Shown: positions 6,362 to 33,964 of the stretch, one piece after another
Layout: each line of letters opens with the position of its first letter
Numbering within the stretch: position 1 is the stretch's first letter
Origin: a virus
IMG/VR virus record: IMGVR_UViG_3300037963_001228
Coordinates: 15,271 to 49,597 of that record
Strand: one strand, 5' to 3'
Length of the DNA stretch: 34,327 nucleotides
Program-made: the position numbers and the translations under genes
The notes under the pieces: generated by a model
What the model saw: the letters and a program-made list of their open reading frames with translations, nothing else
What the model was told of the DNA's origin: nothing
The model's database searches: none

Positions 6362-6375
6362 GCATTATTTATATT

Positions 6376-6403: not shown

Positions 6404-6432
6404 TATTTTATTAACTTATATTATATTATATT

Positions 6433-7254: not shown

Positions 7255-7263
7255 AACAATAAT

Positions 7264-7294
7264 ATGTAATCACCCTTATATAGGGTGGTTACAT
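7264..7294 (+). terminator. Hairpin terminator upstream of neck genes
   Basis: ATGTAATCACCC pairs with GGGTGGTTACAT (12 bp with one T-G wobble) around a TTATATA loop. A T-rich tail (ATTATTTT) follows, and the hairpin lies 10 bases after the preceding stop. The shape fits an intrinsic terminator or attenuator. It is lower in GC than the capsid terminator, so read-through is plausible. Confidence 0.75.
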
Positions 7295-7312
7295 TATTTT
7301 AAAAAAATATAT

Positions 7313-8134: not shown

Positions 8135-8140
8135 TATAAC

Positions 8141-9136
8141 ATGCCAAACAACTTAATAACATTAACAGAAAAACAATATTTTGAAGGTAAAGACACACAA
8201 CAGTTAACTGGTGATGATAGACAATATGGTAATTATCAGTTTATGAAAATTGATGACGTTATTAATGATGTTCTAGCAACTTATTGTCAAAAAGGTCAAA
8301 TATTAGAAGGTGTTAGAAAATCAGATGTATCTTACCACGCTTATAGATCAATGCAAGAATTAAGCTTTGATACTTTTAGATCTGTAAAATCTATGGAAAT
8401 AGAAATACCACCTTCATTAGTTATGGCCTTACCAATAGATTTTGTTGGTTATACAAAAGTTACTTATAAAGGTGATGATGGTATTGAAAGAACTTTAATG
8501 CCTGCTATTGTTACTAGCAACCCTACGCCTTACCAACAAGACAGTGATTACTATTTACAATTTGATAGTGATGGGGCTGCAACTCACGCTAGTGACTCTA
8601 ACACTTGGTTTGATTATCATGGTAATACTGTAAACACTGGTGTGCTAAGTGGTAACACAGGTGTTGCAACTCCACATCAAACTGATGCTGATCAATACGA
8701 TATATATGACTTACAAGAAGGTCAAAGGTTCGGTTCTGAGCCAAGACATATGAATGCTCATGGGTCTTTTTATATAGATTATTTAAAAGGCAGACTACAT
8801 TTATCTGGTAATTTAACAGGAAGAGTTATAACACTAAAATATATAAGCGACGGCGTTGGTACTTTACAAAGTGGTGTAGGTACTGGTTCTCCTTGGTCTA
8901 CAGAGATACATACAGAGCAAGATATGATTGTTCATAAGTTTGCACAAGAAGCTATGATAAAGCATGTGTTATATGGATGTATGCAAGCTAGGATGCAACA
9001 ACCACCGGGTATGTTAGCATTACTTAAAAAAGAAAAGTTTGCAGAAACTAGAAAAGCAAAAATAAGATTATCAAATATAAAAATTGAAGAGATAGCTCAA
9101 ATAATGAGAGGTAAATCTAAATGGATTAAACACTAA
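8141..9136 (+). CDS. Second neck/connector protein (putative)
   Basis: A 331-residue protein, probably a second head-tail adaptor. Residues 30-100 are helical and include 'DVINDVLATYCQKGQILEG', followed by a strand-rich segment ('MEIEIPPSLVMALPIDFVGY') found near the start of connector-type proteins. The middle (about 125-235) is Asp/Thr/Tyr-rich and beta-like. The last 80 residues are helical and basic ('LKKEKFAETRKAKIRLSNIK'), which could contact DNA or the portal channel. It is 6 bases downstream of the first neck-type gene and 3 bases upstream of the hub gene, so the three are likely co-translated. I see no catalytic motif. An alternative is a tail-tube-like protein of the T7 gp11 type. 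Confidence 0.65.
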   Translation: MPNNLITLTEKQYFEGKDTQQLTGDDRQYGNYQFMKIDDVINDVLATYCQKGQILEGVRKSDVSYHAYRSMQELSFDTFRSVKSMEIEIPPSLVMALPIDFVGYTKVTYKGDDGIERTLMPAIVTSNPTPYQQDSDYYLQFDSDGAATHASDSNTWFDYHGNTVNTGVLSGNTGVATPHQTDADQYDIYDLQEGQRFGSEPRHMNAHGSFYIDYLKGRLHLSGNLTGRVITLKYISDGVGTLQSGVGTGSPWSTEIHTEQDMIVHKFAQEAMIKHVLYGCMQARMQQPPGMLALLKKEKFAETRKAKIRLSNIKIEEIAQIMRGKSKWIKH

Positions 9137-9139
9137 TTA

Positions 9140-12100
9140 ATGGCAGAACTAAAAAGAAATTTTGGGCAAGCAAAAATGAACAAAGACCGCGATGAAAGAC
9201 TCGTGGAACCTGGTCAATATCGTGATGCTAACAATGTACAAATAGTAAGTTCTGACGGATCAGATATGGGATCTGTACAGACAGTAATGGGTAACACTGA
9301 GGTAACTTCAAATATAGTGTTAGCAGATTATTCTACTTGTGTTGGTGTTTACGAGTTGCCTGAAAAAGATGTTATATATTACTTTGTTGCTGGTGGTGGT
9401 CACCCTAAACTACAAGGTTTTCAACCTTTAATATTTAGAGATTATATTATAGAGTATGACACTATAACACAAACTTCTAAATATGTTTTTGTTGATATAT
9501 ATAAAGTAAAAGAAACGCTTAACCAAGCACTTAACACTAATAAAGTTAGAGTAGCATCTGGATTAAGTACAGCTTATAATTATACCGGTATAAGAAGAGG
9601 TATGAAAATAGTAGGTACTTTTACAAATGGTAGTGGTGGTAATATAACAGCACCTAATGGTAATACTGTTGCTAATGGTAACACATATTACATAAGTGAA
9701 AATGACAATGTTACCGTTGAAGATGTTATTAGAGATGGTACAAATGGTTGGCATATAGTATTATCAGAAGCTGTTGCTAGTTCAGTTGGTGACAAACCAA
9801 CTTTTATAATAGACAAAGTATTACAGTTTGATCCTTTTGTAAAAATAACTTCAATAGACCACATTGATGGTTTATTGTTTTTTACAGATGGTAACAATGA
9901 GCCTAAAAAAATAAATATAAAAAGAAGTATACAAGGTACTGGTGGTAACGCTAGAGTAAGAGACTGGGATAATACAGTGGCTAGGTCTGCAGCTACAAAT
10001 TTAGCTTCAGGTAACTCAAACCGTAAACAAATATTTTTAGGAGACAATTATCATTTTCACACAAGAATATCTTTAGACAATCAGCTAGCTATGTCTAGAG
10101 CTGATAATGAACCTATATTTTCAAGACTTAAAGATGTAACAGTAATAAAACCAAATCCAAAGTTTCCATTAAGACTTGAAATGTCTGATACAGTTATGAA
10201 GCGAATACCTGTTTTATCAAGTGGTAATTTAGGTGATGCTAACGCTACAAGTGGTGTTTTATCAGCACAAACAAAATTTAGAGATAGTAATGGTGATGTG
10301 TTTGAGCCAGGTGATATTGTTAGTAATATTAACTTTATAAACCCTATAGATTTACGTGTTGGCGATATAGTTATATTAACTGATGATATGACTGCCAACA
10401 TTGATGATTTAGATAGTACCGATGCTTTAGTTAGAGCAGTTGTATCAGACGCTCCTGGTGGTATGCCAAACAACGGTGGATCAACAGGTCCTTATGAGTT
10501 AACAATAAACTCTGTAAGTGAAGACGTTCAAAACGTAGACACTGACTTTGCTTTAAAACTAGAAAGTGACGTTAACCTTTTCGAATTTAAATTCCCTAGA
10601 TTTTCTTATAGATATAAATACGTAGATGGCGAATACTCAGCGTATGCTCCTTGGTCACAGGTTGCTTTTATACCTGGTGATTTTGATTATGTAGCTAAAA
10701 AAGGTTTTAATATAGGTATGACAAACAGATTAAAGTTTGTTACTTTAAAAGATTATTTTCACGAGTTTAATTTAGTACCTGCAGAGGTTGTTGCTATAGA
10801 TTTATTATATAAAGAAGAGTCTAGCCCAAACATTTACACTGTAAAAACGTTAACACCAAAAAACGATAATCCTGAATGGCCAGATAGAACTAACAATAGA
10901 AACAGAGGTTCTTATACTATAACTTCTGAAATGATACACGCTGTTGTTGAAGCAAATCAATTGCTAAGACCTTATGACAACGTACCTAAAAGTGCAAAAA
11001 CTTTAGCTATAACTGGTAACAGATTAGTGTTTGGTAACTACAAACAAAATTATGATTTAGCTGGTGATATAGACTTAAACGTTTCTTTTGCTCATAATTA
11101 CGGTGAAAACTATAAACAACCAGGTGGAACTGGTTTTCCTTCAGTAAAAACTCTTAGAACATATCAACTAGGTGTTGTATTTAGCGATGACTTTGGCAGA
11201 GAAACACCAGTGCTTGTTCCAAAGAAAAGTAGTAGTGTAACGTTAGATAAAAAATGGTCTATTAATTTAAACCAAATAAAAGCTAGATTAGATTACACTG
11301 GAACTAATGTTCCTAGTTGGGCAAAATATTTAAAGTATTATATAAAAGAAACTTCTAACGAATATTATAATTTAGCAATGGATCGTTGGTACGATGCTGA
11401 AGATGGTAATGTTTGGATTAGTTTTCCTTCTGCAGAAAGAAATAAAGTAGATATAGATACATATTTAATACTTAAAAAACAACACGATTCAGATGTGCCT
11501 GTGTTAGAAAAAGCTAGATATAAAATTATAGCTATTGAAAATGATGCACCTGACTATATAAAAACTAAAAAAGTTAGTCATGGCTCAGCTGTTATGAACT
11601 CGCAAAACGCAACGGTAAATAAAGATGCTGTTAGTTTTATATTTTCAGAAACTAATTTTGAAACTGGCTTTGGTGATAGAGAAAAATTTTTAACAGATAC
11701 ATGGTCAAAAGTAGCTAGTGGTTATGGTTATGCTAGAATAATTGGTACATCAGGTGGTAACACAGCAGCTACAGACTGGATTCAAGTTGTTAGTATAAAA
11801 AAGCTTAGTGGTACCGACACTAGTATAAGAACTGCAACTAAGTTTGGAGACGATGCAGATATGTCGTCTATATTGTCTGGTACTATTAGCTATTCTTTAG
11901 AATTAAGAGAAGATGTTGTTACTAACAGACCAGAGTTTAATGGTAGATTTTTTGTAAAAGTTTATAAAGATTTATTACTACAAGACGCTGTAATGGTAGA
12001 TCAAGACCCTTCAACAGCATTAAGTATATTTGATTCTTTTAATATGAGACTTTTAATAGGTCCAAGAAACAGAGGCGGTCAATATTTTAATGCGCATCCA

Positions 12101-15100
12101 ACTTCTTCAGCAGCTAGTAGCTTAGGCCACCCACATACTTATCACTCTGGTAATTATACTGATTTTAACGAAAATGCTTTTGGTAGTGGTATAAATTCTT
12201 TTAACGCTAGCAACGAAGAGTTTGGTCATTGTGATACTTCTCACAGTAGAACAAAAGATTGGTGGGAAGCGTTTTCATCTGCTGATGCTAACTCTGATTT
12301 ACTTTACATGGAAGGAATAAAAGTTATGGAAACTTCTAACTGGAATTCTACAGGTTTTGCTAGACACGCTAATAAAAATGGTGTTCATGATTCTCACCTT
12401 GGCGGCTATGGAAGTGGTGGTGGTAGTAATGCTGGTGTTTTAAGACACTACAGTAGTTATAGTAGAATATTTTTTGGTTTTTTAGGTTGGTTTGCAGATC
12501 ACAGAGATGCACAATCAAGAGTACATCAGTTTTACACTTTTATGGAAACTCCTGGAACTATATTTAGATTTAGAGATGATCCAACTCAAACAGCTTATAA
12601 AGTTATAAAAAGAGGTGGTGCAGCTCAAGTTTATAACTTTGGTAGAAACTTAAACCACTGTTCTAGATGTGATAAAGATGATACTGGTTGTAAGAGTAGC
12701 ATGTTTAATGTTATGTTTGAAAGACTTGATGGCGGCGGTCCAATGGATCCAAACGAGTTTGACGTTTTAAGTTTAATGAAGCATGACGCTTCAAGCGTAA
12801 CTGGTATAGACATATTAAAACAAGATTTTGTTTCAGAAAGTGGAGGATCAGAGTTATCTACAGAAAAACCTGCTATATGGGAAACAGAACCTAAAGAAGA
12901 TGTTGGGTTAGATATATATTACGAAGCTACAGGTTATTTACCTCTTAATGTTGATGCTGATAATAATGAGTTGTTATTGCCTCTTGGTTCTACTTTTAAA
13001 GTTAGAAACGCGTCTGGTAACTTTCATTTAGCGGCAGATGGTATAACAGAAGTTATATATGAAATAACAGCTGTAAACTCTACAGGTAATAAAGACATTA
13101 CAAACGTAACGGTTAGAAATACTATTGATAACAATATGGGTCTAACTGATGCAATTAATCACAATCAAGTAGTTGCAATTGAAAGATATGACGGATCGTG
13201 TATATCTTTATATGTTGTTAAAGAGTCTGGTAACTACGCTGCTGGTGATACAGCTGTAGGTATATTAACTGGTAAAGCACCAACAGATCCACAAGGTGGT
13301 CCAGTGCCTTGGAGAGCTCCACATTTTAATCCTATAAAACTAGGTTGGAGTAATTGCTTTTCATTTGGTAATGGTATAGAGTCTGATAGAGTTAGAGATG
13401 GTTTTAATTTAACACAACTAACTAACGGTGTAAAAGCTTCTACTGTAGCTGCTACTACTTATGCTGAAGAGCATAGAAGCAGTGGTTTTATATGGTCTGG
13501 TATATTTAACTCAATTAGCGGTGTTAATAGATTAAACCAATTTATACAAGCAGAGCCAATAACAAAAGACTTAAACCCAAGTCATGGTAGCATACAGAAA
13601 ATAGTAGCTAGAAATACTAACACTATAACTTTTTGTGAAGACAAAATATTAAGTATATTAACAAATAAAGACGCGTTATTCAACGCTGATGGTGGTTCAA
13701 ATGTTTCTGCTAGTAACAAAGTATTAGGTAGTGCAACTCCAATACCTGGTGAGTATGGTATATCTACAAACCCAGAGTCTGTAGCGGTTACAGCTGATGC
13801 TATATACTGGTGTGATCAAATGAGAAGTCAAGTGTTAAAACTTCAAGGAAACAGCATAGCAGTAATATCTGACGTTGGTATGAAAGATTATTTTAACGAT
13901 AACTTAAAAAATATATCTTTTGCTATAGGTAGTTATGATGATAAAAAATCAGAATACAATTTAACACTTGCTACTATGAACGGTCGTTATCAATACAGAC
14001 CTACAACAACAACTATAAGCTGGAATGATAATGCTAAGGGTTGGACTAGTTTTAGAGATTTTGCAGGCTTAGAGTTTGGTGTTAGTTTAAATAACGAATA
14101 TTACACGTTGAGACAAGGTTCTATGTGGAAGCATCATACAAATGCTGTTGCAAATAATTTTTATGGCACTCAGTATTATTCTGATATTACAATGATATTT
14201 AACGAACTACCTAGCTCTGTAAAAAGTTTTAACTTAATAAATTACGAAGGTACTCAAGCTAGAATAACAGAGTTTTCAACTGTAGCACAAGGTGGCGTTA
14301 ATTACACAGACGGTGAATATTATAACTTAAATGCAAAAGCTGGTTGGTACTTAGACACTCTTGTTACAGATTTACAAGATGCTGAAAATATAGAATTTAA
14401 AAGTAAAGAGGGTAAGTGGTTTGCTGCGTTAAAAGGTGTTACATCAACAGAAACAAACTTAGATCAAAGAGAGTTTTCTGTTCAAGGTTTAGGAGTTGCT
14501 TCTGTAAGTTCTAGCGGTAACACAGCTAAGTCATACAAGCTAAACGTTAGAGTTAACAACACATCGTCTAGCGGTACAAACTGGGATGCTAGTGGTGCTG
14601 ACTCTGGCTTTAGAGTTTTAGATGGCCCAAGTATAACACAAACAGAAGGTGTTAGCACTGGCACAGGTAGTGTTTACGCTAATTTAACTAATCAAGTTAT
14701 AAACTCATCAGGCCAAACGGTTTATTCTGGTATAGATTTAGATGCGGCAGACTTTTCAGTTCCAGGTGGTACAGCTACAACAAGCGGCTCTGGTAATTCA
14801 ACAGTTTATATTTATACAGCTGCAGGAGGTTGGAATGGTGATCCTGAAGTTTCTAAAGTAGAGTTTAGAAATAACGGTATAGCTGGAGACCCTGGTAACA
14901 CTGTACAAGCTTTAATATTTTATAACTCATTTACAATGCCTAGCGCAAACAAAAATATCTATGTAGATGTTGATCACAATGCTTCTGTAAGTTCTAACTC
15001 TGCTAATAGAAGTTCTGTTGTTAGAGTTAGTTATACACCTCAAGCAAACTCTACAGTTAACAATACAACTATATCTGGTATAACAAAAACAAATGCTAAT

Positions 15101-17272: not shown

Positions 17273-17932
17273 ATGAGTTTTTTACTAGTCGGTGCTGCTG
17301 CTGTAACAGTAGGTGCTGGTGTAGCTAAAGCTATTGGTGCTAATAAAAGAGAAAAAGCTGCTGCGGCTGAAGCTGCTGCGGCAAAGGCAGAAATGAATAA
17401 AAGAAAAGCCGAGTTTGCAGCTTTAGACACTAGTAATCCTTTCTTGAACATGGAAAATAAAATGGAAGACCTAACAGTCAACCAGCAAGAAGCAGAGTTC
17501 ATGAGAGAGCAACAGCAACAAAACCAAGCAAACATATTAAGTCAAATGAAGCAATCAGCAGGTAGCTCTGGTATAGCAGCATTAGCACAAACACTGGCTA
17601 ACCAAGGTGCTATGGATGCTAGAACTGCTTCTGTGTCTATTGGTAAACAAGAAGCTCAAAATCAACAATTAGAAAGAGCTGAGGCTAGTAGAATACAAGA
17701 CATGCAAATAGGAGGTGAATTACAAAAAAGAGCTGCAGAAGAAAACAAAATAGCTACGCTTATGGGTATGGATGCTGCAGATATGCAAGCAGCAAACATG
17801 AAAGAGCAAATGGCTAATCAACAAAAGTGGGACGGAATAACAAGTGCTGCAGGTGGAGTAACTAATGCATTAACAGGTGGTGTTGGAGGTAAAATGGATT
17901 TCCAAAACCCTTTCTGGAAACAACAACAATAA
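17273..17932 (+). CDS. Internal virion/DNA-ejection protein (putative)
   Basis: A 219-residue, Ala/Gln/Glu-rich, mostly helical protein. The N-terminus 'MSFLLVGAAAVTVGAGVAKA' is a Gly/Ala-rich hydrophobic segment that could insert in a membrane. Residues 25-175 are coiled-coil-like. 'SSGIAALAQTLANQGAMDAR' near residue 100 and a Gly-rich segment near 195-208 ('AAGGVTNALTGGVGGK') resemble ejection proteins of short-tailed phages (T7 gp14-like position, small cargo protein of crAss-like phages). It comes just before two further probable cargo genes and four bases before the next start. The likely role is to be stored in the capsid and ejected to line the DNA route through the envelope; this is inferred from order and composition. 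Confidence 0.7.
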   Translation: MSFLLVGAAAVTVGAGVAKAIGANKREKAAAAEAAAAKAEMNKRKAEFAALDTSNPFLNMENKMEDLTVNQQEAEFMREQQQQNQANILSQMKQSAGSSGIAALAQTLANQGAMDARTASVSIGKQEAQNQQLERAEASRIQDMQIGGELQKRAAEENKIATLMGMDAADMQAANMKEQMANQQKWDGITSAAGGVTNALTGGVGGKMDFQNPFWKQQQ

Positions 17933-17936
17933 AGAT

Positions 17937-19088
17937 ATGAATGTAAATTTAGTAAACGCATATAGACAAGGTGTAATGTCAGAAGCTTTAAAAGAAGGAA
18001 GCAAAGGTAGAGTTTCTGATGTTTTAGGTAAGGTTGGCAAAGACCTTAATAAACTAGGTACTGATTTAGCTAATAAGAGAGAAGCTGATGCTAAAACAGA
18101 AGCTCAAAGAATATCTAATAGTAAAAAAATAGGACAAGATCTTGCTACTAAAGTATTAGATAGAAGCGGTGGATTAAATGAAAACTATTTAAACGCTTAT
18201 AGACCTGAAGTAGAAAGATTACAAAATGAATACGATAACGCTGTTCAAAGCGGTGATAAAGACTTAGAGCAAAAAATATTAGGACAGTTAAACGACTTAA
18301 GTGCAACAACTGCAACTTGGGTTGATTTTAGAAAAGATGTTGCTACAACTATAGATACTAAAAGTGTTGATGGTAAAGCTATGCCAAACTTAATAAAAGG
18401 GTTAGACGCGGACACTCAAGACTTGTTAAACTCTATATTAGATTCTAATACTGAAGTTGTGTTTGAAGACGGTGTGTCTAAAATAAAAGGTCCTGATGGT
18501 AAATTATACAGCAAAGGTGATCTTGAAAAAATACTAGACAACGCTAAAAGAGATGTTGCAACTCATAATGATTTACTAGGTATAAACGAAGTTTTAATGC
18601 AAGAAGCTGCTATAAACGAAGGGTTAAGCACAGACGATAACAAATACAAGCCTTTTAATAAAGAAGCAACAAACAGAAAGGTAATGCAAATTCTAGAAAC
18701 ATCTAATATACAGTCTATATTAAACGACAATGTATTTACAGGTGAAGCTACTATGGCTGAAAACATTAAAAATTATGTTAGTGGATTGTCATACCAAGCT
18801 TTAGGCATTGACACTGTTTCTTCCACTGGTCAAGTTTATGATACAGATGGTGATGGTAAAATATCTATGGAAGAAGCTAAACTTATATCACAAGAAGATA
18901 GTGATAAAATATTTTCAGCGTTAACAGATCCAGAAAATAAAAATTATAACGAAGGTATTACCAAGCAAGCTGTTGGTAACTACTATACATCTATATTAGA
19001 AAAAAATTACGGAGGTACAAGAGAAGACGTGGCTCAAGCAAATGAAAGAAATTATGACCTCTTAAACAAACAATACTTCGGTAGCTAA
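17937..19088 (+). CDS. Virion cargo-type protein with EF-hand loop
   Basis: A 383-residue protein. I place the start at ATG 17937 ('MNVNLVNAYRQGVMSEALKE'), four bases after the upstream stop; an in-frame ATG at 17877 would overlap the previous gene by 56 bases and adds a translated copy of its coding DNA. The protein is helical and charged with no signal peptide. Residues 302-313 ('DTDGDGKISMEE') are a canonical 12-residue EF-hand calcium loop, with Asp at 1, 3 and 5, Lys at 7, Ser at 9 and Glu at 12. Its stop overlaps the giant gene start by one base (TAATG), so the two are coupled and probably act together, most likely as ejected internal proteins. The family is otherwise unrecognised. Confidence 0.72.
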   Translation: MNVNLVNAYRQGVMSEALKEGSKGRVSDVLGKVGKDLNKLGTDLANKREADAKTEAQRISNSKKIGQDLATKVLDRSGGLNENYLNAYRPEVERLQNEYDNAVQSGDKDLEQKILGQLNDLSATTATWVDFRKDVATTIDTKSVDGKAMPNLIKGLDADTQDLLNSILDSNTEVVFEDGVSKIKGPDGKLYSKGDLEKILDNAKRDVATHNDLLGINEVLMQEAAINEGLSTDDNKYKPFNKEATNRKVMQILETSNIQSILNDNVFTGEATMAENIKNYVSGLSYQALGIDTVSSTGQVYDTDGDGKISMEEAKLISQEDSDKIFSALTDPENKNYNEGITKQAVGNYYTSILEKNYGGTREDVAQANERNYDLLNKQYFGS

Positions 19089-22000
19089 TGAATTTAAATC
19101 CTCAAGATCAACAAATATTAAAAGACGCAATAGCAAAAATGAAAGCGGATAGAGTTCCTATACCGCAAGCTAAAGCTATGATCGATGCTTTTATACAAAG
19201 AAGGCAGGCTGCTTATGCGGCACAACCAACTGTACCTACACAAAAAGAAAAGAAAGAGGTAAAAGAAAACAATACTGAAATAGAAAAGTTAGAGTTAGCA
19301 GAAAAGGAAAGAGTAGCAAAGCTTGGTTATACAAATGATTTTCACCCTGATAATGTAAAAACTTGGGTTAATAAAGACGAGGATCAAATAGTAGCTGAGT
19401 TGAAAAAACTTTACCCAAGAGTTGGTATGACAGTACAAGCTAGTGGTACTGGTGGTAACGAGATTATAATAACAGGTGAGGACGGTTTTGCTACGAAAAT
19501 TAATTTAAATCCTAATGGAGAAGCGGATAGGCAAAAAGCCGTAGATCAGTTTAATGTTTTTAACCAATGGGCTAAAGGTCAACAAGAGGTTATAAAAAAG
19601 AACGGTATTGGTATGAACCTGTTTACAGGTGTAGATACTCAAGGTAACTTTTTTGTTCCAAATGCTATTGAAAGAGATGATTTAGCTAGAGCTAACAAAG
19701 GTTATAATGAAATAGGTATTAACATTTACCCTTTATATAATCAAAAAAGAGGTAAAAACCAACTTTATGGTATAAGCAAAGATGGTGTACCTATAGAAGG
19801 TAAGTTTGATCCACAAGAGCTGCAACAGTATTTATCTAATAGAGATAATTATACTGAAGACCAGAGAATTAAGTTTTCTGAAATGGCGCACGAGACCGCT
19901 ATGCGTCAACACAAAATAAGAAAAAACATACAACAAGACCCACAGTATAGTGTTGAAAGATCTTTGTCAAAAACAAACTATGCAAAATCCAAACAAAAAT
20001 ATAACGATGTTAAGATACTTATGAAAGGCGCTTCAGAAGAAGACATTAAAGTGCTTAACAACCATTTAAACAAACCTATTATTTCTGATGATGGTGAGTT
20101 TGAGCCTGTTGATGGTTGGGAACAGCAAAGAGTTGACACTTTGTTTTCTGAAGAGGTTAGAAATTTACTAAGTGATGAAGGTAAAATTATATTTGATAAA
20201 GCAAAAGAAAATTCAGAAGATCAAATTAATAAATCTATAGACAAGCAAAACTTATTAGATAATCAAAAAGTTTGGAACGCAGAGTACGCTGAAAGATTAA
20301 GAGAAGGTGATGATCAGTTAATAGTAAGATATAATGGTAGAGCAGGTATAGTGGCTGTTGAGGGTGAAGATGGTGAGGTTAAAGTAGAAAACTTATACAA
20401 GCAAAAAGAAGCTATAAACACTAATTTAGATAACGCTAAAAGGGATTTTAAAAGAGAAAGCGATGAAGACTATAGATATGCTTTAGATATATTTAAAAAA
20501 GCTAAAAAAGAAGGAGTAACTGTTGAGGTTAAAAAAGACGAAAAAGGTATGAATATGTATATTGCTAAAGGTGATAATGCAGAAAAATACCAACCAATGT
20601 TTAACAAAATTAGAAAAAGAGAAAAAGAAACTTTTGACAAATATAATACGACTATAACTGTTGAAAGTAATAGATATAAAAACTGGTTAAAAACTAATCA
20701 AGAACACTCACAAATACAAGACGTTGCTAACAGAGAAGGTGACATTGGTAATATAATGCTAGATCAATTTAACAGTGCTTGTGCTAGTATAGGTTATTCT
20801 GTACCTATGTTGTTTGGTAGTGAAAATGCTATAAACATGCATCAAAGTAGACAAGCCGGCGCTGATGCTTACGAGGCTGTTTTAGATTATAATACATCTT
20901 TAGCAACAGGTCAAAAAGGTAGATACAGTTTAATAACTTTAGCACAACAAGCTCCAAACGTAATGCTGGCCGTCGCTACCCAGGGTGTTGGTACCGCTTT
21001 TGGTGCTAGCGCTACTGTGGCCAGCGCTTTAACAGCTAGTGCTTTTGGTATTAACTCTGGTACATCTAAGTATGCTGACTTAACAATACAAGCCGGTGCA
21101 GCTGAAGAGGCGAAAAGACAGCTTGACATGTTAGAGCTCAACAAAGACTACATGGATTACGAGGATTATATAAACACAAAAGCTAATCTTGAAGAGCAAA
21201 AAGCTTTAGGTAGTATGTCAAGTAATGATATACTTAAAGCATCTATAGCGGCTGGTGTTATTGAAGGTGGTGTAGCGTTTGCTTTAGGTACAATACCTAA
21301 CGCTAGTAAATTAATGAAAGGTATTATAGGTACATCACAAGCAGATGATATATTAGCAGCTGTTACTAAAAAGAATTTTGCTTATTATGCTGGTATAGTT
21401 GGTGAGGGTGTTAAAAGAACTGCTGGTGAAGTTGCTGAAGAAAGCTTAATACACCTTGGTGATATGGCTTCTGAGTCTATATTTCTTGATAGAGACATGG
21501 ATTTGACTGAAGGTTGGAGTGATGTTATAGCGGCTTCTGTTTTAACTGCTGGTGCAATGAACGGGCCTAGTTTAGCTTACAGCTCTATCATGCAGCGTAT
21601 GAACACGGCTGATAATAGAAAAATATATTTTGAAACTAAAGATCAAATTAATAAATATAAAAACCAGCTTAAAGATGCTAATCTAACACAGTCAGATATA
21701 GACTTAATAACATATGACTTAAACCAAGAAAAAAGCAAACTAGCAACTCTTACAGACGGTATGGAAATGACTGGTATGTTAATGGGTGCTAAAGGCCTTG
21801 AGCGTTTAATGAAAAACGGTATGGTAATGGATCAGCTAAACTACGAAGCTGGTGTTACGCCTGGTGATTCACAAGCTGTTATCGATAAAAAAGTTAAAGA
21901 ATATTCTGATAGTTTAAAAGGTGATAAGAAAAAAAGCTATGATAATAGATTAGCTGATGCTAAGGAAAGAAGACAAAAGTTACTTGAAAGTGTAGATTAC

Positions 22001-25000
22001 AAAGATGGTCATAGAGCTTGGGGTAGCAGAGGTACTCGTATTCATAATAGATTAATGAAGACTGATGCTGATTATAAAAAAATGAATGACCAGCAAAGAG
22101 CTACAAGAGTTCATCAAGAGGCAAAAAGACAAATAGAAAATAGATTTATAAAAGACGCTAAAAAAGATAAAGGTATAAAAGCTATGGTTGAAACACAGCT
22201 ATACGGCGGCGTTGATATAATGAGAGATAAAAGAAGAACTAAACAACAAAGAGAAGCTGAAGACGAAGCTTATCTTCGTTACGGTAGATTGTTTGGTGGT
22301 TTTAAAGCTGAAGCTATATCTAGAAATATAGATCAAGAAATAAATGCTAAATCAGTTTTAGGTGATAAAAGATTACAAGGTTTACAGGTGGTTCAAGTTA
22401 GTGACAAAGGTTTTGTTGAAGATATACGTCAGATGGAGGAAAATGGTGAGCTTGGTCCAAATGAAAGCGCTGATGATATTATAGCTGAAGTAGAGTCTGG
22501 AGAAAGTTTTGGTGTTATTGTTGGTGGTAAGTATATTGTTACAGACGCTAAGGCTGCGGCTAAAAATCTTAAGGAAGGTAACTTAACACAAGGTACTGTA
22601 TTTTCACACGAGGTAAAACATGCTACAGACGCTAAAGCTTTTGACACTCAAGAGTTAATAGAGTATTCTGGTAATTTAGCTACATGGACAGCTGAAAACG
22701 CAGCACCTATACATGTTGAGGCAATGCAAAGATTACAGGGTAACAAGCATTTACTATATGACAAAAACGGTATGCCATTGCCATGGGAGCAACAACCAAA
22801 AATAGCTCATCAAGAATATGGTAACTACGTACAAGATGCTATACAAAGAAAACAGTACAAAAAATACAAAGACAAGTTATATTCTAACAAACCTACAATT
22901 TTACAAAGAGCTGGTGGTATAATTAACGCTGACTTTAAAACAGATTCACCCGCAAATGCAGCTGCTTATTTAGCAGATCACATGAAGTCTTTTGACAAAG
23001 GTGAGGTTGGTAAGTTAACTAAAAGAAGAATAGACAACAGAAAAGGTAAAGATTTACAAACTGAAGATGGTAGAACTGTAAAAAGATCTAGTAACTTACA
23101 AGGTGTGTTAGAGCAAGGTTATAGAGGTAAAAAAGCAACTAAAGCTGATGTTAAAGCTATGCTTGACAATATGCTTAAAGTTGATTACAATGGCGAACCA
23201 ATGACTGGTGACGCTAATCAAGTAAGTGCTTTAGAGTATGAAATAGGTGGTATAATGAATGATATAGCTAAAAGATTATTTGATCCTATTAGCTCTGAAA
23301 ATAGAAAAGGTGTAACAAGAAAAGATTATATAGACAGTTTGTTTTCAGAAGCTGTTACCATGATACAAAACGAATACGACCCTTCTAAGCAAAGTTTAGA
23401 CTCGTTTGTTAGTAATAGATTAAACCTTAGAGCAAACAGTTTGGCTGAAAGACTAGGTATTGAACAAGTGTTTACAACAGATTTAGATAATGCTAACAGA
23501 GTTCTTGCTGATGACGATACAGATGTAGAAATAGATGAAATTGGTAATATTCGTGAAGGAGCTACTGATTTTACCGACGGCTTAGCATTAACACCAGAAG
23601 GATTAAAAACTGTCTTAGATCACGTCCAGTTGAATTTAGGAGGTATTCTACCTAGTGTTACAGCTGAAAAAGGAAAAAATGCTACAGTTAGTCCTTTAGT
23701 TTCTGAATTAAAAAAATTATTTTATCAAGAAAAAAATCCTATACAGCAAACTATAGAAGCTGCTATGGGTAAAACACCACAAGAAGTAGAGATGTGGTTA
23801 AAAAATCCTAAACATAAAGCTCTTATATTAAAACACATGCCGACTACTTGGTTAGCTAAAAACATGCCTAAGGCTGTAGAAAAACTAGTTATACAAGAAG
23901 ATGGTACTAAAGTGTGGACAACAGATCATGTTGGTAGAACTAAAGGTACAAAGCCAGGTCAAGTAGATTTTTACAGATCAAGTGAAGAAGGTCCTTATAA
24001 AGGTATGACTGATGGTAAACAAAAAATCAGACGTAATCCTAATGCAATGGCTGATATAACTTCTGTAGATATTATTAAAAAGTTTTTTAATGGTACTACA
24101 ATGACAGAGCTTAGAAGAGGTGGTCTTGATACTTTAACTAGAGCTATGGCTCAAGAAATAGGTTTAGAACAGTTTAGAGCTAATATAGAAAACGATAGCG
24201 ATATAGCTAAAATGTTTAAATCTAGACAAGAACTTTTACACGGTGAGTTAGCTGATAGTTTAACAGCACAAGTTATAGAGCAAGTTGAAAGAGGTGTTGT
24301 TCTTAGAAGTGAGGAAGGTAGAAACGTAAGTATGTCTTCTTATATGGCTGGTGTTGATGTTGTAGCGGTGTCTCAAGCTGTAAGCAGTATTTATAGAAAT
24401 GGTATTGACAGTAAAGAAGCTAGATCTGCTATTAACGCAGTACCTGTAGAGTCAAGACCTTTAATAGATCATTTATCAAAAGAACTATATCACAAAGGTA
24501 TTACTAAAGACAACGTTAAATTTTTAAAACGTTTAGTTAGTGACAAAGACACACCTCATATAATTAGAGAAGTTATAAGAGACAAGGGTTACAAAATAAC
24601 TAGTAAAGTTAAAGGAAAAGGTAGAGTAATAGATACTGAAAAAGGAGATGCTTATATTGCAGAAATAAAAGACTTTCAAACTTTCTTTCCTTTTAGTCCA
24701 CAAGAAGTTGAGCTACTAGGTGGGTTTGACATATTAGGCTTATACAATAGAATGTTGAACGCAGCTAAAGAGCAGAAAGATGGTAGTGGACCTGCTAGAT
24801 ATTATCCAGATTTAGAACAGCTACAAGGTTTAGTTAGACCAAACCCTGATATAGCTAGAGTAGCAAAAGATAGTATTTTAATAAACAAAAATACTACAAA
24901 GTTTAGAAACATGTATTCTCCAATAATGCATACAGAGAATACACTTCAAGAATCTATAGACCATTTAGACAAAGTAAGAGATGATTTACAAGCTTCAAAT

Positions 25001-28000
25001 GTTTCAAACATAAATGTCATGAAGTCTATTGTGTTTAAAATAGACCAAGCATACAATGGTACAGACGTAAAGATGTCGCCAGAAACTTTAGTTACCCTGT
25101 TTCAATTACAAAGCTCTGCAACTAAAGGCTTTAGAGGTTTAAGTAAAGTAGATTACTTTATGCACGGAAACTTTATTGATAACACAAAAGCAGATAGTCC
25201 AAAAAAACCAACTAAAGATATTAATACCGAAGAAGGTAAAAAGCAATATGATGAGTTTGTTAATAGATTAAGTAAATACGACTTCTATAAAGAAAGACTA
25301 GCTATAAACAGAGAGAAAAATCCAGGCAACGAATATCAAGCTCAACTAGATACATATGATGATTTGCTTGTAAAAGGAGAACACTTAGGTGCTAATGGTG
25401 ACACTATGGCTGAGCTTTTAAATGCTATAGCTACCAACACTTTAACAGAAGCAAAGTTTTATGAAATAGTAGAAAATCATACTCAATTTATGGGTCCTAA
25501 GTTTTTAACAGACAAAGTGCTTGATGCTGAGCTTGGGCAAATGAGCAAAGAAGGTGACAAGAGAATAACTTTAGCTATAGAAAATAGCAAAGACTTAAAC
25601 GAAAATCAAAAAAGAGAAATATTAGGTAGAATAATACACTTGTCTGGTAAGCCAGCCGCAGACTACATAGCAGAAAAAGAAGCTAGAAAAGTTTTAAAAT
25701 CAAAAGAAAATATACAAAAAGACAATATAATAAGCAAAGCGTTAGAGCAAAAGTATTTAGATGTAGAAAACAAAGGTATAAGTATATTAGATTTTGATGA
25801 TACACTTGCTACTAGCAAATCACTAGTTGAGTTTACAAGACCAGACGGTACAACAGGTACATTAACACCTGCGGAATATGCTGCTGAATATGAAAACTTA
25901 GCTGATCTTGGTTATACATTTGACTTTTCACAATTTAACAAAGTTGTTGATGGTAAAATTGCACCGCTGTTTGAAAAAGCTAAAAAGCTTGCTGACAAGT
26001 TTGGTACTAATGATATATTTATATTAACAGCTAGACCTGCTGCAGCTCAAAAAGCTATACACAAGTTTTTAAAAGACAATGGTTTAAACATACCTATAGA
26101 AAATATAACTGGTCTTGGTAATTCTACGTCTGAAGCTAAAGCGTTGTGGGTTGCTGATAAAGCTGCTGAAGGTTATAACGATTTTTACTTTGCTGATGAT
26201 GCACTAAAAAATGTACAAGCTGTTAAAAATATACTAGATCAGTTTGATGTTAAGTCAAAAGTAAGGCAAGCAAGAACAACGCTAAGAAGTAAAGCTGATC
26301 CTGCTAAGTTAAATGAAATGATTTCAAGAAACTTAGGTATTGCAGAGTATAAAGATTATTCTGACGCAAAAGCAAAGCTTGTTGGTGGTAAAAAAGGTAA
26401 GTATAAATTCTTTATACCACCTAGCGCAGAGGATTTTAAAGGTTTAATATACCCAATACTAGGTAAAGGTGCTAAAGGTGACGCTGATATGCAGTTTTTT
26501 AAAGACGCTCTGTTTGATCCATATTCAAGAGGTATGCAACAAATAGAAAACATGGCGCAAGGTTTAGCTGGTGACCTTAAAAACTTAAACAAAGCTTTTC
26601 CTAAAGTTAAGAAAAAACTAAAAAAGAAAATGCCTGGGTCAGAGTTTACTTACGATCAAGGATTAAGAGTTTACATGTGGGACAAAGCTGGTGTTGAAAT
26701 ACCTGGAATATCTGAAGCTGATAAAAAAGCTATATTAAAAGAAATAAACAAAGAGCCTGAGCTACAAGAGTACGCTGATAATATTACTAAAATAGTTAAA
26801 TCACCTAGTTATATAGAGCCTACAGACGCTTGGTTGACTAGTTCAATACCACAAGATTTACATGGTATAACTATGGGTGAGAATAGAACTGGTATGCTTA
26901 CTGAGTTTATTGAAAATAGAAAAAAACTATTTGGTGACTGGAAAAATGGTAGATTAGATGGACCTTTAATGAACAAGTTAGAAGCTGCGCTTGGTACTAA
27001 TTGGAGAGATGCTATGGAAGATATATTGTGGCGTATGGAAAATGGTACTAACAGAAACTTTGGAGGTAATAAACTAACTAATCAATTTACAAACTGGGTT
27101 AACAACTCTGTTGGAGCTATCATGTTCTTTAACGGTAGATCTGCTGTGTTACAGACGTTATCAACAGTAAACTTTATAAACTGGTCAGATAATAATCCTA
27201 TAAAAGCTGCAGCAGCATTTGCTAATCAAAAACAGTTTTGGAAAGACTTTACGTTTTTATTTAACTCTGATATGCTTAAGCAAAGACGTGCTGGTAATAG
27301 AAGGTCTGTTAGTGAAAACGAAATAGCACAAGCGTATAAAAAAGGAGGTGTTAGTGGTTTATTACAAAAATTATTAGAGTTTGGTTTTTTACCTACGCAA
27401 ATAGCTGATAGCTTTGCTATTGCTTCCGGTGGTGCTACTTTTTATAGAAATAGAATTAAGTCATTAATGAAAGGTGGTATGTCAAAAGCAGAAGCAGAGG
27501 CTCAAGCTTTTACAGACTTTCAAAAGATAACTGAAGAAACTCAACAATCTTCTAGACCTGATATGATTTCATCACAACAAGCTTCACCACTAGGTAGATT
27601 AATACTTGCTTTTCAAAATACACCAATGCAGTATGCTAGGTTAACTAAAAAAGCTTTTCTTGATCTTAAAAATGGTAGAGGTGATGCTAAATCAAATATA
27701 TCAAAAATACTATACTATGGCGCTGCACAAAACCTAATATTCGGCGCGCTACAACAAGCTCTGTTTAGATTTATGTTTGATGATGATGAAGAAAAAACTG
27801 AGGGTGAAAGAGCAGCAGAAAAAGAAAGGGCAACATTTAGATTAGTAAACGGATCTATAGACTCTATATTACGTGGTATTGGGGTTGCTGGTGCTATTGC
27901 GTCTACACTTAAAAATATGATTCTTAAATTTGCTGAAGAAGATAAAAAAGGTTTCCGTATGGATACAGCTGCAATAATACTTGAGATGTTACAGTTGTCA

Positions 28001-28459
28001 CCACCTGTTGGTAGTAAAGTTAGAAAAGTAAATACTGGTCTTAGAACTTATAAGTTTAAACGTAGAGAGATTGATCACATGGATACTTTTGATATAGACA
28101 ATCCAATATGGTCGCCTGTTACTCAAACAATATCTGCTTTAACAAATATACCTACAGATAGATTATATAAGAAAATTATGAACTTACGTGAAGTTGGTAA
28201 TAGTAACAACGATAACTGGCAGCGTATAGCTTTATTACTTGGTTGGAACACTTGGGATGTTGGTGTAAGAAATCAAGAGGTTATAAATGCTAGAGGTGAA
28301 ATTGAAGAGTTAAGAAGACAAGCAAAAGAACAAGAAAGATTAAGAAAAGAAAAAGAAGCAAGAGAAGTTCAATGCTCTGCCCGTACTAGAAAAGGTAAAG
28401 GACCTAGATGTAAAAATAGAACTGAAAATAAATCTGGCAAGTGCTATGCTCACCAGTAA
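19088..28459 (+). CDS. Giant multidomain polyvalent/ejection protein (metallopeptidase + HAD + Cys/His tail)
   Basis: A 3123-residue protein, probably packed in the virion and injected. Domains seen: an N-terminal helical segment; charged helices to about 600; Ala/Gly-rich hydrophobic stretches at 614-660 and about 715-850 that may enter membranes; a zincin-type site 'FSHEVKHATDA' with HExxH at 1174-1178; a HAD phosphatase domain at about 2225-2400 with motif I D2235-F-D2237-D-T, motif II 'LTARP' (T2314) and motif IV D2370-D2371; a conserved-looking segment 'SRPDMISSQQASPLGRL' near 2825; and a Cys/His tail (C3096, C3108, C3119, H3122) like small CxxxTxxGxxC...C..H domains. Enzyme domains chained in one huge phage protein match the 'polyvalent protein' concept. 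Substrates are unknown. No lytic transglycosylase motif was identified. Confidence 0.8.
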   Translation: MNLNPQDQQILKDAIAKMKADRVPIPQAKAMIDAFIQRRQAAYAAQPTVPTQKEKKEVKENNTEIEKLELAEKERVAKLGYTNDFHPDNVKTWVNKDEDQIVAELKKLYPRVGMTVQASGTGGNEIIITGEDGFATKINLNPNGEADRQKAVDQFNVFNQWAKGQQEVIKKNGIGMNLFTGVDTQGNFFVPNAIERDDLARANKGYNEIGINIYPLYNQKRGKNQLYGISKDGVPIEGKFDPQELQQYLSNRDNYTEDQRIKFSEMAHETAMRQHKIRKNIQQDPQYSVERSLSKTNYAKSKQKYNDVKILMKGASEEDIKVLNNHLNKPIISDDGEFEPVDGWEQQRVDTLFSEEVRNLLSDEGKIIFDKAKENSEDQINKSIDKQNLLDNQKVWNAEYAERLREGDDQLIVRYNGRAGIVAVEGEDGEVKVENLYKQKEAINTNLDNAKRDFKRESDEDYRYALDIFKKAKKEGVTVEVKKDEKGMNMYIAKGDNAEKYQPMFNKIRKREKETFDKYNTTITVESNRYKNWLKTNQEHSQIQDVANREGDIGNIMLDQFNSACASIGYSVPMLFGSENAINMHQSRQAGADAYEAVLDYNTSLATGQKGRYSLITLAQQAPNVMLAVATQGVGTAFGASATVASALTASAFGINSGTSKYADLTIQAGAAEEAKRQLDMLELNKDYMDYEDYINTKANLEEQKALGSMSSNDILKASIAAGVIEGGVAFALGTIPNASKLMKGIIGTSQADDILAAVTKKNFAYYAGIVGEGVKRTAGEVAEESLIHLGDMASESIFLDRDMDLTEGWSDVIAASVLTAGAMNGPSLAYSSIMQRMNTADNRKIYFETKDQINKYKNQLKDANLTQSDIDLITYDLNQEKSKLATLTDGMEMTGMLMGAKGLERLMKNGMVMDQLNYEAGVTPGDSQAVIDKKVKEYSDSLKGDKKKSYDNRLADAKERRQKLLESVDYKDGHRAWGSRGTRIHNRLMKTDADYKKMNDQQRATRVHQEAKRQIENRFIKDAKKDKGIKAMVETQLYGGVDIMRDKRRTKQQREAEDEAYLRYGRLFGGFKAEAISRNIDQEINAKSVLGDKRLQGLQVVQVSDKGFVEDIRQMEENGELGPNESADDIIAEVESGESFGVIVGGKYIVTDAKAAAKNLKEGNLTQGTVFSHEVKHATDAKAFDTQELIEYSGNLATWTAENAAPIHVEAMQRLQGNKHLLYDKNGMPLPWEQQPKIAHQEYGNYVQDAIQRKQYKKYKDKLYSNKPTILQRAGGIINADFKTDSPANAAAYLADHMKSFDKGEVGKLTKRRIDNRKGKDLQTEDGRTVKRSSNLQGVLEQGYRGKKATKADVKAMLDNMLKVDYNGEPMTGDANQVSALEYEIGGIMNDIAKRLFDPISSENRKGVTRKDYIDSLFSEAVTMIQNEYDPSKQSLDSFVSNRLNLRANSLAERLGIEQVFTTDLDNANRVLADDDTDVEIDEIGNIREGATDFTDGLALTPEGLKTVLDHVQLNLGGILPSVTAEKGKNATVSPLVSELKKLFYQEKNPIQQTIEAAMGKTPQEVEMWLKNPKHKALILKHMPTTWLAKNMPKAVEKLVIQEDGTKVWTTDHVGRTKGTKPGQVDFYRSSEEGPYKGMTDGKQKIRRNPNAMADITSVDIIKKFFNGTTMTELRRGGLDTLTRAMAQEIGLEQFRANIENDSDIAKMFKSRQELLHGELADSLTAQVIEQVERGVVLRSEEGRNVSMSSYMAGVDVVAVSQAVSSIYRNGIDSKEARSAINAVPVESRPLIDHLSKELYHKGITKDNVKFLKRLVSDKDTPHIIREVIRDKGYKITSKVKGKGRVIDTEKGDAYIAEIKDFQTFFPFSPQEVELLGGFDILGLYNRMLNAAKEQKDGSGPARYYPDLEQLQGLVRPNPDIARVAKDSILINKNTTKFRNMYSPIMHTENTLQESIDHLDKVRDDLQASNVSNINVMKSIVFKIDQAYNGTDVKMSPETLVTLFQLQSSATKGFRGLSKVDYFMHGNFIDNTKADSPKKPTKDINTEEGKKQYDEFVNRLSKYDFYKERLAINREKNPGNEYQAQLDTYDDLLVKGEHLGANGDTMAELLNAIATNTLTEAKFYEIVENHTQFMGPKFLTDKVLDAELGQMSKEGDKRITLAIENSKDLNENQKREILGRIIHLSGKPAADYIAEKEARKVLKSKENIQKDNIISKALEQKYLDVENKGISILDFDDTLATSKSLVEFTRPDGTTGTLTPAEYAAEYENLADLGYTFDFSQFNKVVDGKIAPLFEKAKKLADKFGTNDIFILTARPAAAQKAIHKFLKDNGLNIPIENITGLGNSTSEAKALWVADKAAEGYNDFYFADDALKNVQAVKNILDQFDVKSKVRQARTTLRSKADPAKLNEMISRNLGIAEYKDYSDAKAKLVGGKKGKYKFFIPPSAEDFKGLIYPILGKGAKGDADMQFFKDALFDPYSRGMQQIENMAQGLAGDLKNLNKAFPKVKKKLKKKMPGSEFTYDQGLRVYMWDKAGVEIPGISEADKKAILKEINKEPELQEYADNITKIVKSPSYIEPTDAWLTSSIPQDLHGITMGENRTGMLTEFIENRKKLFGDWKNGRLDGPLMNKLEAALGTNWRDAMEDILWRMENGTNRNFGGNKLTNQFTNWVNNSVGAIMFFNGRSAVLQTLSTVNFINWSDNNPIKAAAAFANQKQFWKDFTFLFNSDMLKQRRAGNRRSVSENEIAQAYKKGGVSGLLQKLLEFGFLPTQIADSFAIASGGATFYRNRIKSLMKGGMSKAEAEAQAFTDFQKITEETQQSSRPDMISSQQASPLGRLILAFQNTPMQYARLTKKAFLDLKNGRGDAKSNISKILYYGAAQNLIFGALQQALFRFMFDDDEEKTEGERAAEKERATFRLVNGSIDSILRGIGVAGAIASTLKNMILKFAEEDKKGFRMDTAAIILEMLQLSPPVGSKVRKVNTGLRTYKFKRREIDHMDTFDIDNPIWSPVTQTISALTNIPTDRLYKKIMNLREVGNSNNDNWQRIALLLGWNTWDVGVRNQEVINARGEIEELRRQAKEQERLRKEKEAREVQCSARTRKGKGPRCKNRTENKSGKCYAHQ

Positions 28460-31201: not shown

Positions 31202-31742
31202 ATTATTATTACTATTATTTTTTATATCTTGCAGCAAAGAAGTTGATGATCTAGGTTTTAGAACATATATTATACCAAAAGGAGAACATAGCTCTGGTAC
31301 ATTTATAAATCACCCAGACAACTCAAGGATTACATTTGACTTTATTCTTGACGAATCAGCAATATATTATTCCGAAGTGCCTGAAAACCAAACCGACGTT
31401 AACAAAATTTATGGCATGAGTGACTTCGGTAAGCTTCATCAAAAATACTCTATAAGGCTTGGTTGGAGATATGTACGTGGAGAAATTGAGTTGTGCTGGT
31501 TGAGACATGAAGAAGGTAGACACAGCTCTGCTACAATAAGAACTATAGAGCCAAACGAAATATATAATGCTACTATTGATATAACTACTTTTTATTATAT
31601 TATAGTTATAAATGGTGATACTACAGAAGTTAGGCGTAGACCAGAAGGTTATTGGGGTTTAGTTAGAAGATATTATTTATATCCATATTTCGGTGGCAAT
31701 GAATATGCGCCACACGACATTACAATTAAAATAAGAGAATGA
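31191..31742 (+). CDS. Putative surface-exposed lipoprotein
   Basis: A 183-residue protein with a short signal peptide and lipobox ('MFRKLLLLLFFISC', Cys14). The residues after the Cys are 'SKEVDD', an acidic stretch with a Lys that resembles the lipoprotein export signal used in Capnocytophaga/Flavobacterium-type Bacteroidota to put lipoproteins on the outer face of the outer membrane. This is a partial match, not exact. The mature part is beta-rich with Tyr/Arg/Glu, and I recognise no family. The start overlaps the previous gene by 11 bases and the stop overlaps the next start (ATGA). Candidate roles: outer-membrane spanin partner, superinfection exclusion, or host-surface alteration. Confidence 0.68.
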   Translation: MFRKLLLLLFFISCSKEVDDLGFRTYIIPKGEHSSGTFINHPDNSRITFDFILDESAIYYSEVPENQTDVNKIYGMSDFGKLHQKYSIRLGWRYVRGEIELCWLRHEEGRHSSATIRTIEPNEIYNATIDITTFYYIIVINGDTTEVRRRPEGYWGLVRRYYLYPYFGGNEYAPHDITIKIRE

Positions 31743-33964
31743 AAAAATTATTATTATTATTATTATTACCGCTAAATATATTAGCACAGCAGTCTTGGGT
31801 ACATCTCCAAGTTAAATTTGATTTTTATGGACCGTCAGAATCAAACTTCTTTATGGTATCTAATAACAATGGCGATACGGCCATTTTCGTTACACCTAGC
31901 GTGCCGTATGAATATTTAGATACTATACTACCATTAGACACTGGGCATTACACTGTAACACTTACAGATGCTTATGGTGATGGCTGGACATCTCAACAGC
32001 CTGCATGGTTTAAAATGGGTAACGCTTGTCAAGGTTTAATACTTGATTTGCAATTACAAGGTGTACCGTTTACACAATTAGATACTGTTGTTCACATACT
32101 ACCTTGTCCACCACCTGCACCACCTGTTTGTGTACCTACACTTGTTAATATAAACTTAGATCAATATCCTAGTGAAACAACTTGGGATATAAAAGATAGT
32201 TTAGGTAACGTATTACTATCAGGAGGTCCTTATAATAATGTACCTAACTACCAACCACAATTTATAGCTAACTGTTTACCTGTTGGTGAATTAACATTTA
32301 CTATTTATGATAGTTATGGTGATGGTATTGCTGGTAGTTTATGGGGTGGTCAAGACGGATCTTATTATGTTATACAATGCGGTAACGATACAGTAGTTTT
32401 TGGTGATGTTGCTAATTTTGGTAACGACACAAGTCATGTTTTTATGTCTGATACTTGTGTACCTCCACCACCTGTATATGGTTGCATGGACGATGATTAT
32501 GTAGAATATAATCCGTTAGCTACAATAGATGACAGTAGCTGTGTAACTCTAAAAATTTATGGCTGTACTGATAGTACAATGTACAATTACAGTCCTACAG
32601 CAAATACAATGGAAAACATTGATTCTTGTGGTTATACTTTAATATTACACGATCTTGCTGGTAACGGTTGGGTAGGTACAAGATTAGAGATATGGCAAGA
32701 TGCTGATACAATGGAGTTTTATATGACTTCACAATCATTTAATCAAATAGAAAATTTAGGTTTATATGCACCAGCACCTGTATACGCAAAGCTTTTTGTA
32801 ACACAACAAGCACAGCTTACAGCTCCTGAGTGTGGTTTTACTTTAATAGGACCTGAAGGTGATACTGCTTTAAGCGTACAACCACCTTTTATTATACCAT
32901 TTAAAAAATACACAGGTAATACTTATTGTGGTAATATCTGTGAAGAAAAAATATTTGGCTGTATGGACAGTACAGCTTTTAATTATGTAGACACGGCTAA
33001 TACTGCTTTACCTTGTTACTATTATCCTGGTTGTATATCACCAGCATATTTAGAGTATCACGTAGATACTACTAATGGTTATTATACTGATTTTAATATT
33101 CAAGACAGTTGCTTAACTCTAGCAGTTTTTGGTTGTATGGACGATACAATGTATAATTATAATCCACTTGCTAATGTTGATAACGGAGGTTGCGTTGCTT
33201 ATATATATGGTTGTATGGATCCAACTATGTATAATTATAATCCGCAAGCAACTGCAAATGATACTTGTATACCTTATATATATGGTTGTACAGATCCTGT
33301 AGCATTTAATTACGATCCGCTAGCTAATACTGATAACGGTAGTTGTGAAGAGGTTGTTTACGGTTGTACCGATAGCACTATGTTTAATTTTAATCCTCTC
33401 GCAAATGTTGACAATAACTCTTGTATACCTTTTATCTACGGCTGTACTGACCCTTCTATGCTCAATTACAACCCACAAGCTAACACAGAAGATTTTAGCT
33501 GTATTCCTTACATTTATGGTTGTACTGATAGTTCTGCCTTTAATTATAATCCAGAAGCTAATACTGATAATGGTTCGTGTGTGGCTGTGGTTGAAGGATG
33601 TATGGACATCAACGCGTACAACTATAACTTCGATGCTAACGTTAACGATTCCTTGGCATGCTTGTATGCGGCAAATTGTATAACTGGTCCTGGTGAGCCT
33701 TATTGGTTAAACGATCCTTGTTATGCTTGGGTGTTAGAAGTTGATGACTACTGTTGTGAAAATGAGTGGGACACTATATGTCAAGCTACTTATGATTACT
33801 GCTCTGGCACTTGGGTTGGTCCTGCACCACAAAGATATAAAAATAAAAAGCTTGTTGCTATAACAGATATGTTAGGTAGACCTGTAAATAATATAAACAG
33901 AAAAATACTTATATATATCTATGATGATGGTAGCACAGAAAAACATTATTATTTCAATGATTAG
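31739..33964 (+). CDS. Secreted repeat protein with flavobacterial 'GCTD' repeats and T9SS-like C-terminus
   Basis: A 741-residue protein with a signal peptide ('MKKLLLLLLLPLNILAQ'). Three aromatic-Gly motifs occur at 77-83 ('DAYGDGW'), 191-196 ('DSYGDG') and near 305-309 ('DLAGNGW'). Ten Cys-flanked repeats of the form YGCTDPxAxNYNPxANxDNxSC follow, starting at residues 247, 274, 406 and then in tandem from 464 to 641; each likely holds a disulfide. The last 40 residues ('KKLVAITDMLGRPVNNINRK', then 'IYIYDDGSTEKHYY') resemble the sorting domain of type IX-secreted Bacteroidota proteins. Such architecture is typical of host surface and adhesion proteins, so the gene was probably captured from a flavobacterial host. 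It overlaps both neighbours. Possible roles are a secreted or surface factor, or a virion spike. Confidence 0.8.
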   Translation: MKKLLLLLLLPLNILAQQSWVHLQVKFDFYGPSESNFFMVSNNNGDTAIFVTPSVPYEYLDTILPLDTGHYTVTLTDAYGDGWTSQQPAWFKMGNACQGLILDLQLQGVPFTQLDTVVHILPCPPPAPPVCVPTLVNINLDQYPSETTWDIKDSLGNVLLSGGPYNNVPNYQPQFIANCLPVGELTFTIYDSYGDGIAGSLWGGQDGSYYVIQCGNDTVVFGDVANFGNDTSHVFMSDTCVPPPPVYGCMDDDYVEYNPLATIDDSSCVTLKIYGCTDSTMYNYSPTANTMENIDSCGYTLILHDLAGNGWVGTRLEIWQDADTMEFYMTSQSFNQIENLGLYAPAPVYAKLFVTQQAQLTAPECGFTLIGPEGDTALSVQPPFIIPFKKYTGNTYCGNICEEKIFGCMDSTAFNYVDTANTALPCYYYPGCISPAYLEYHVDTTNGYYTDFNIQDSCLTLAVFGCMDDTMYNYNPLANVDNGGCVAYIYGCMDPTMYNYNPQATANDTCIPYIYGCTDPVAFNYDPLANTDNGSCEEVVYGCTDSTMFNFNPLANVDNNSCIPFIYGCTDPSMLNYNPQANTEDFSCIPYIYGCTDSSAFNYNPEANTDNGSCVAVVEGCMDINAYNYNFDANVNDSLACLYAANCITGPGEPYWLNDPCYAWVLEVDDYCCENEWDTICQATYDYCSGTWVGPAPQRYKNKKLVAITDMLGRPVNNINRKILIYIYDDGSTEKHYYFND
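33128..33661 (+). repeat. Tandem coding repeats, seven copies of about 78 bases
   Basis: Seven in-frame copies start at 33128, 33206, 33281, 33359, 33437, 33515 and 33593. Each encodes 25-26 residues of the form [FYE]GC[MT]D..xNYNPxANxDN.SC. Base identity between copies is only partial, with many synonymous changes, so this is an old or diversifying array rather than a recent expansion. Three more isolated copies lie upstream at 32477, 32558 and 32954. Confidence 0.9.

Follow-up and report, generated by a model that had tools for sequence, protein, structure and literature searches.

A likely polyvalent-type ejection protein of a marine phage, with zincin, sigma-region-2-like and Pnkp-type phosphatase domains

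A marine bacterial virus encodes a chain of 3,123 amino acids in which several disparate domains are joined: a zincin, a sigma-region-2-like segment, a HAD phosphatase, a conserved core and a Cys/His tail. We consider it likely that a short-tailed phage of Bacteroidota carries this giant inside its virion as a polyvalent-type ejection protein, which delivers sigma-like and end-healing phosphatase domains at genome entry. The domain assignments are well supported; the roles of the domains, and the presence of the protein in virions, we infer. The class of protein is known; what appears to be new within it is the sigma-like piece, together with the phosphatase for DNA/RNA ends.

The protein belongs to a family of ejection-type giants in which a zincin is present in nearly all members and a sigma-like domain in about 70%, together with a Pnkp-type 3'-phosphatase and, in some, a nested kinase. 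The sigma-like and Pnkp-type domains lengthen the list of domains found in polyvalent proteins. The family bears on the question of how host transcription might be biased, at the time of entry, by phages without a virion RNA polymerase.

The gene and its family

The window, that is, the whole stretch of DNA analysed (34,327 bases), is part of a virus record of 50,250 bases. The giant gene (19088-28459, + strand) runs from ATG to stop, so that the single uninterrupted gene of more than 9 kb described in the first-pass annotation is borne out; its start codon shares one base with the stop of the gene upstream. Further upstream, on the same strand, lie TerL, portal and head/tail PHROGs, and the relatives of the portal are from phages of Flavobacterium, Cellulophaga, Maribacter and Tenacibaculum. 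A run of N at about 15250-15275 of L050, just before the start of the window, breaks the terminase gene of the record.

Comparison with L001, a relative whose protein is 85% identical, gave dN/dS values of 0.07-0.14 in most modules, as expected under purifying selection. Since this constraint is seen module by module, 19088-28459 is not a chance open frame, and we reject the possibility that it is an artefact.

Searches with the window protein alone reveal little. Pfam returned no family for the whole protein (no LPD, MPTase, HAD or sigma family reaches the cut-off), PHROGs matched only polynucleotide kinase and one unknown, and a tblastn search of INPHARED matched one weak place. Searches of Pfam and PHROGs are too insensitive here without relatives, which expose the modules. 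A scan of viral contigs yielded a family of 48 loci, with complete proteins of 2,000-4,100 amino acids. All relatives have residues 2405-3070 and about 40 have the HAD domain, whereas the first 900 residues occur in the closest relatives only; the N-terminal content varies in both type and length, while the core is constant. Modules are also exchanged: between the window and L001, identity is 42% in residues 1800-2225 (24485-25762, + strand) and 94-95% in the HAD and core next to them. In L044 the C-terminal core is a separate gene of 702 amino acids (9998-12103), directly after a gene of 1,303 amino acids (6090-9998) that holds the sigma-like part.

The core itself (residues 2405-3070; 26300-28297, + strand) is helical and is the most conserved part of the protein. 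It was modelled at a pLDDT of 73, and a profile of it searched against PDB gave nothing significant. It is followed by a C-x11-C-x10-C-x2-H tail (C3096, C3108, C3119 and H3122; 28364-28456, + strand), which occurs in 17 of the family's proteins and is often doubled. The tails of six relatives match Pfam DUF5763 (PF19067; best E 3e-8); the window's own tail gives no such match, but aligns to the matching tails in a profile of the 17 proteins.

Hydrophobic stretches had also been proposed for the chain. Hydropathy shows two Ala/Gly-rich segments of moderate hydrophobicity (near residues 637 and 715; Kyte-Doolittle 1.4-1.7) and no strong transmembrane helices, so the proposal holds in a milder form. 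Both lie in an Ala/Gly-rich region (residues 600-870; 20885-21697, + strand) that is kept in close relatives only and possibly contacts a membrane.

Enzymatic and sigma-like domains

Inspection of the sequence alone had placed an HExxH peptidase within residues 1050-1250, a HAD phosphatase within 2200-2420 and a Cys/His tail within 3090-3123. All three stand, and for the peptidase and the phosphatase both family conservation and the modelled fold agree. The same list was incomplete: it omitted the sigma-region-2-like domain and the conserved C-terminal core of about 650 residues.

The peptidase domain spans residues ~1052-1265 (22241-22882, + strand), with its HExxH motif at H1174-H1178 (22607-22621) and a predicted third zinc ligand at E1243 (22814-22816). 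When 32 sequences were aligned, most of them sharing 15-25% identity with the window, only the columns H1174, E1175, H1178 and E1243 were invariant – the zinc and catalytic set of zincins. Among the aligned proteins having HExxH at this place, which are those of 44 relatives and of the window, the motif is present in 45 of 45 and E1243 in 44 of 45; no HExxH was seen in L022, L041 or L044. This conservation excludes chance occurrence. A homologous zincin is found in giants occupying the same slot, namely gp18 of the cultured Flavobacterium phage elemoE (Flavobacterium sp. BAL314; iE 1.6e-9) and the giant of MW202828 (iE 3.7e-6). The model covering the zincin and sigma-like regions (pLDDT 62 overall) contains a small sheet, the HExxH helix and the Glu helix in the expected order, and the best zincin-type structural match is a domain of anthrax lethal factor (Z 6.7). 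The pairing of an HExxH helix with a Glu helix is also the anatomy of the MPTase of polyvalent proteins, the commonest domain of that class (PMC5512222). On its conserved residues, assignment of this region as a zincin is well supported; its fold and catalytic activity are predicted.

Downstream of the peptidase, residues 1336-1458 (23093-23461, + strand) resemble region 2 of sigma-70. In a model of residues 890-2089, sigma factors lead the VIA-align matches at this place (Z 7.9 and 7.5). Values such as 7.9 are within the range that helical domains reach by chance, and for this reason the segment was put to sequence tests. Sigma region 2 is a small helical domain; a merely generic helical domain, with no sigma ancestry, would account for such a match, and also for a plain Foldseek search of the 1,200-residue model that was uninformative (E > 1 for the segment) and for an empty Pfam scan of the window's own segment. 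We think this explanation improbable in the light of the following results. A profile of 18 segments, searched against all PDB sequences, had a SigE domain as its best match (E 0.001); among the matches listed, about half were sigma factors. Profile-profile comparison with sigma factors of Bacteroidota scored 25.8 over 64 of 68 columns, against no more than 12.4 in 60 column shuffles, 8.0 for the reversed profile and 13.5 for stretches lying elsewhere. The giants are also matched at the same place by a bacterial sigma2 HMM run over all of them, and in two relatives the segment matches Pfam Sigma70_r2 at a level narrowly below the cut-off (E 2e-4 and 4e-4).

Within the family an HMM located the segment, always downstream of HExxH, in 34 of 47 relatives. 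That of the window is divergent: when its clade is left out of the profile, the segment is still found, at residues 1390-1468, with an E of 0.014. On sequence comparison, homology to sigma region 2 is supported at the level of the family and is weak for the window sequence taken alone. The segment shares with sigma-70 region 2 a (predicted) helical fold, the register of regions 2.1-2.4 and the (Y/F/W)xP and L/F-x-x-(Y/F/W) positions. It differs from sigma-70 factors in lying between a zincin and a HAD, in its divergent -10/melting residues and in being without an identified region 4, for which Pfam scans of the window protein and its relatives gave no match.

The HAD domain (residues 2225-2400; 25760-26287, + strand) matches phrog_415 (E 3e-5) and has conserved motifs I-IV: D2235-F-D2237-D-T, T2314 (LTAR), K2351 (AKA) and D2370-D2371. 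Its model is closest to polynucleotide-end enzymes. The top three solved matches are all Pnkp structures (Z 12.9, 12.1 and 11.5), led by the 3'-phosphatase of T4 Pnkp (Z 12.9) and including Pnkp1 of the Pnkp1/Rnl/Hen1 complex (Z 12.1); unrelated HADs follow from Z 11.1 downward. A sugar or amino-acid phosphatase was considered and set aside because Pnkp ranks first, though only moderately above other HADs. A Pnkp-type domain is well supported by motifs and model, and its predicted activity is that of a 3'-phosphatase acting on nucleic-acid ends.

In seven relatives (L018, L019, L025, L026, L028, L039 and L047) a P-loop kinase of the AAA_33/zeta class is inserted into the HAD domain after motif I. 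Its matches among PDB sequences are adenylate and shikimate kinases only, and its distribution on the core tree implies no fewer than three gains or losses. T4 Pnkp is a stand-alone enzyme with a kinase and then a phosphatase in tandem. The window protein has the same HAD fold and the same DxDxT/T/K/DD residues, and the seven relatives have a kinase as well; unlike in T4 Pnkp, the HAD domain is set within a giant chain and the kinase, where present, is nested inside it.

Synteny with virion genes and class membership

The giant gene directly follows two smaller genes, one of 219 amino acids (17273-17932, + strand) and one of 403 (17877-19088, + strand). These are syntenic with gp099 and gp100 of Cellulophaga phage phi40:1, both virion proteins by MS/MS. 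In that phage the product of the slot corresponding to the giant, gp101, is likewise a virion protein by MS/MS, as are the products of the four genes before it, and the same-slot giant of elemoE is annotated 'structural protein'. Between gp101 and the window protein there is no detectable homology (compared by way of the near-identical phi38:1 counterpart, 99.9%), and profiles of the core, HAD and sigma-like domains found no sequence homology in the giants that Panino, phi38:1 and phi46:3 have in this slot. The case for virion presence of the window protein is accordingly one of synteny, on which basis the giant is probably carried in the virus particle. In Maribacter phage Panino the same slot (L068 35423-40912) holds a protein of 1,829 amino acids that is annotated as a tRNA methyltransferase and is unrelated in sequence.

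Reliance on synteny leaves room for another view, namely that the giant is a cytoplasmic, non-virion protein of late or replicative function that stands in a structural operon by happenstance. We regard this as very improbable given the virion location of the phi40:1 slot product, the annotation in elemoE and the polyvalent-like C-terminal half.

Besides close relatives from uncultured viruses, the modelled C-terminal half matches phage polyvalent proteins in their C-terminal fragments (E 1e-13 to 1e-5), and by predicted structure this half also matches proteins annotated LPD/PolyVal. Like the phage polyvalent proteins (PMC5512222), which include the N4 virion RNAP and P1 DdrB, the giant is a multidomain chain encoded near virion genes, with a zincin-like MPTase, exchangeable modules and a similar predicted C-terminal structure. 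No Pfam LPD domain, a kind common in the class though members can do without it, is recognised: a search of the window protein to E 10 gave none, and the families listed for its relatives include none. The giant is set apart by its sigma-region-2-like domain and its Pnkp-like HAD. The main text of the paper that defined the class (Iyer et al. 2017; PMC5512222) does not use the words sigma, phosphatase or polynucleotide, and a literature search that took in papers outside subscription found none describing a virion or polyvalent protein with a sigma domain. The earlier proposal of a polyvalent, injected protein thus gains from the structural likeness of the C-terminal half, the MPTase anatomy and the virion slot of phi40:1; injection itself we infer. 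The accompanying suggestion that the protein counters host defences is not established: the sigma-like and Pnkp-like domains suggest, at least as strongly, that the phage takes over transcription and repairs the ends of nucleic acids.

Comparison can also be made with T7 gp16 and the cargo proteins of crAss001 (PMC10172136). Like these, the giant is a probable third, and largest, internal virion protein after two smaller ones; it differs in that no sequence relation to them is shown and no RNAP catalytic module was found in it.

Proposed roles at genome entry

On the reading that we favor, of a polyvalent-type ejection protein, the core (residues 2405-3070) would serve as a platform for packaging and ejection, and the N-terminal part, with the products of the two small upstream genes, would aid crossing of the envelope. 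The zincin might cut the chain into working pieces or cleave host proteins. Once inside the cell, the sigma-region-2-like domain would engage host RNA polymerase to the advantage of the incoming DNA; the Pnkp-type HAD would strip 3'-phosphates from broken nucleic-acid ends, with a 5'-kinase-like module added in the seven relatives.

Alternatively, the giant acts mainly as a structural ejection protein, as T7 gp16 does: core and N-terminal part would form a DNA channel, the zincin would do no more than mature the virion, and both the HAD and the sigma-like part would be passengers of little consequence. The position of the gene directly after two small putative ejection genes fits such a protein, as do the conserved core and the great differences among relatives in their N-terminal modules. 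Passengers of little consequence are harder to reconcile with a HAD domain that retains its catalytic residues in about 40 relatives and is under constraint equal to that of the core (dN/dS 0.07), or with the retention of HAD and sigma-like parts across very divergent giants. On balance we judge a mainly structural role unlikely, and continue to favor the delivery of active domains by a polyvalent-type protein.

A more specific conjecture, which we put forward tentatively, is that a virion-borne sigma-region-2 module, in place of a virion RNA polymerase, captures host RNAP at entry, either for early promoters or for transcription-coupled DNA uptake. An Rpb1-type RNAP was not found in 14 related records; these records are partial, so that such absence is not proof. 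Stand-alone sigma factors above the Pfam cut-off are present in at least four of the related records. Both observations are consistent with reliance on the host RNAP and count in favor of the polyvalent-type reading. The stand-alone phage sigma factors, of about 253 amino acids, are found in L096-L099 (the viral records behind L038, L041, L023 and L018), and possibly serve later transcription.

At two places (31739-33964 of the window and 2-388 of L050) the phage encodes secreted-type proteins with YGCTDPxxxNYxPxAxxDxxSC repeats, the C-terminus of which resembles the sorting domains of type IX secretion in Bacteroidota.
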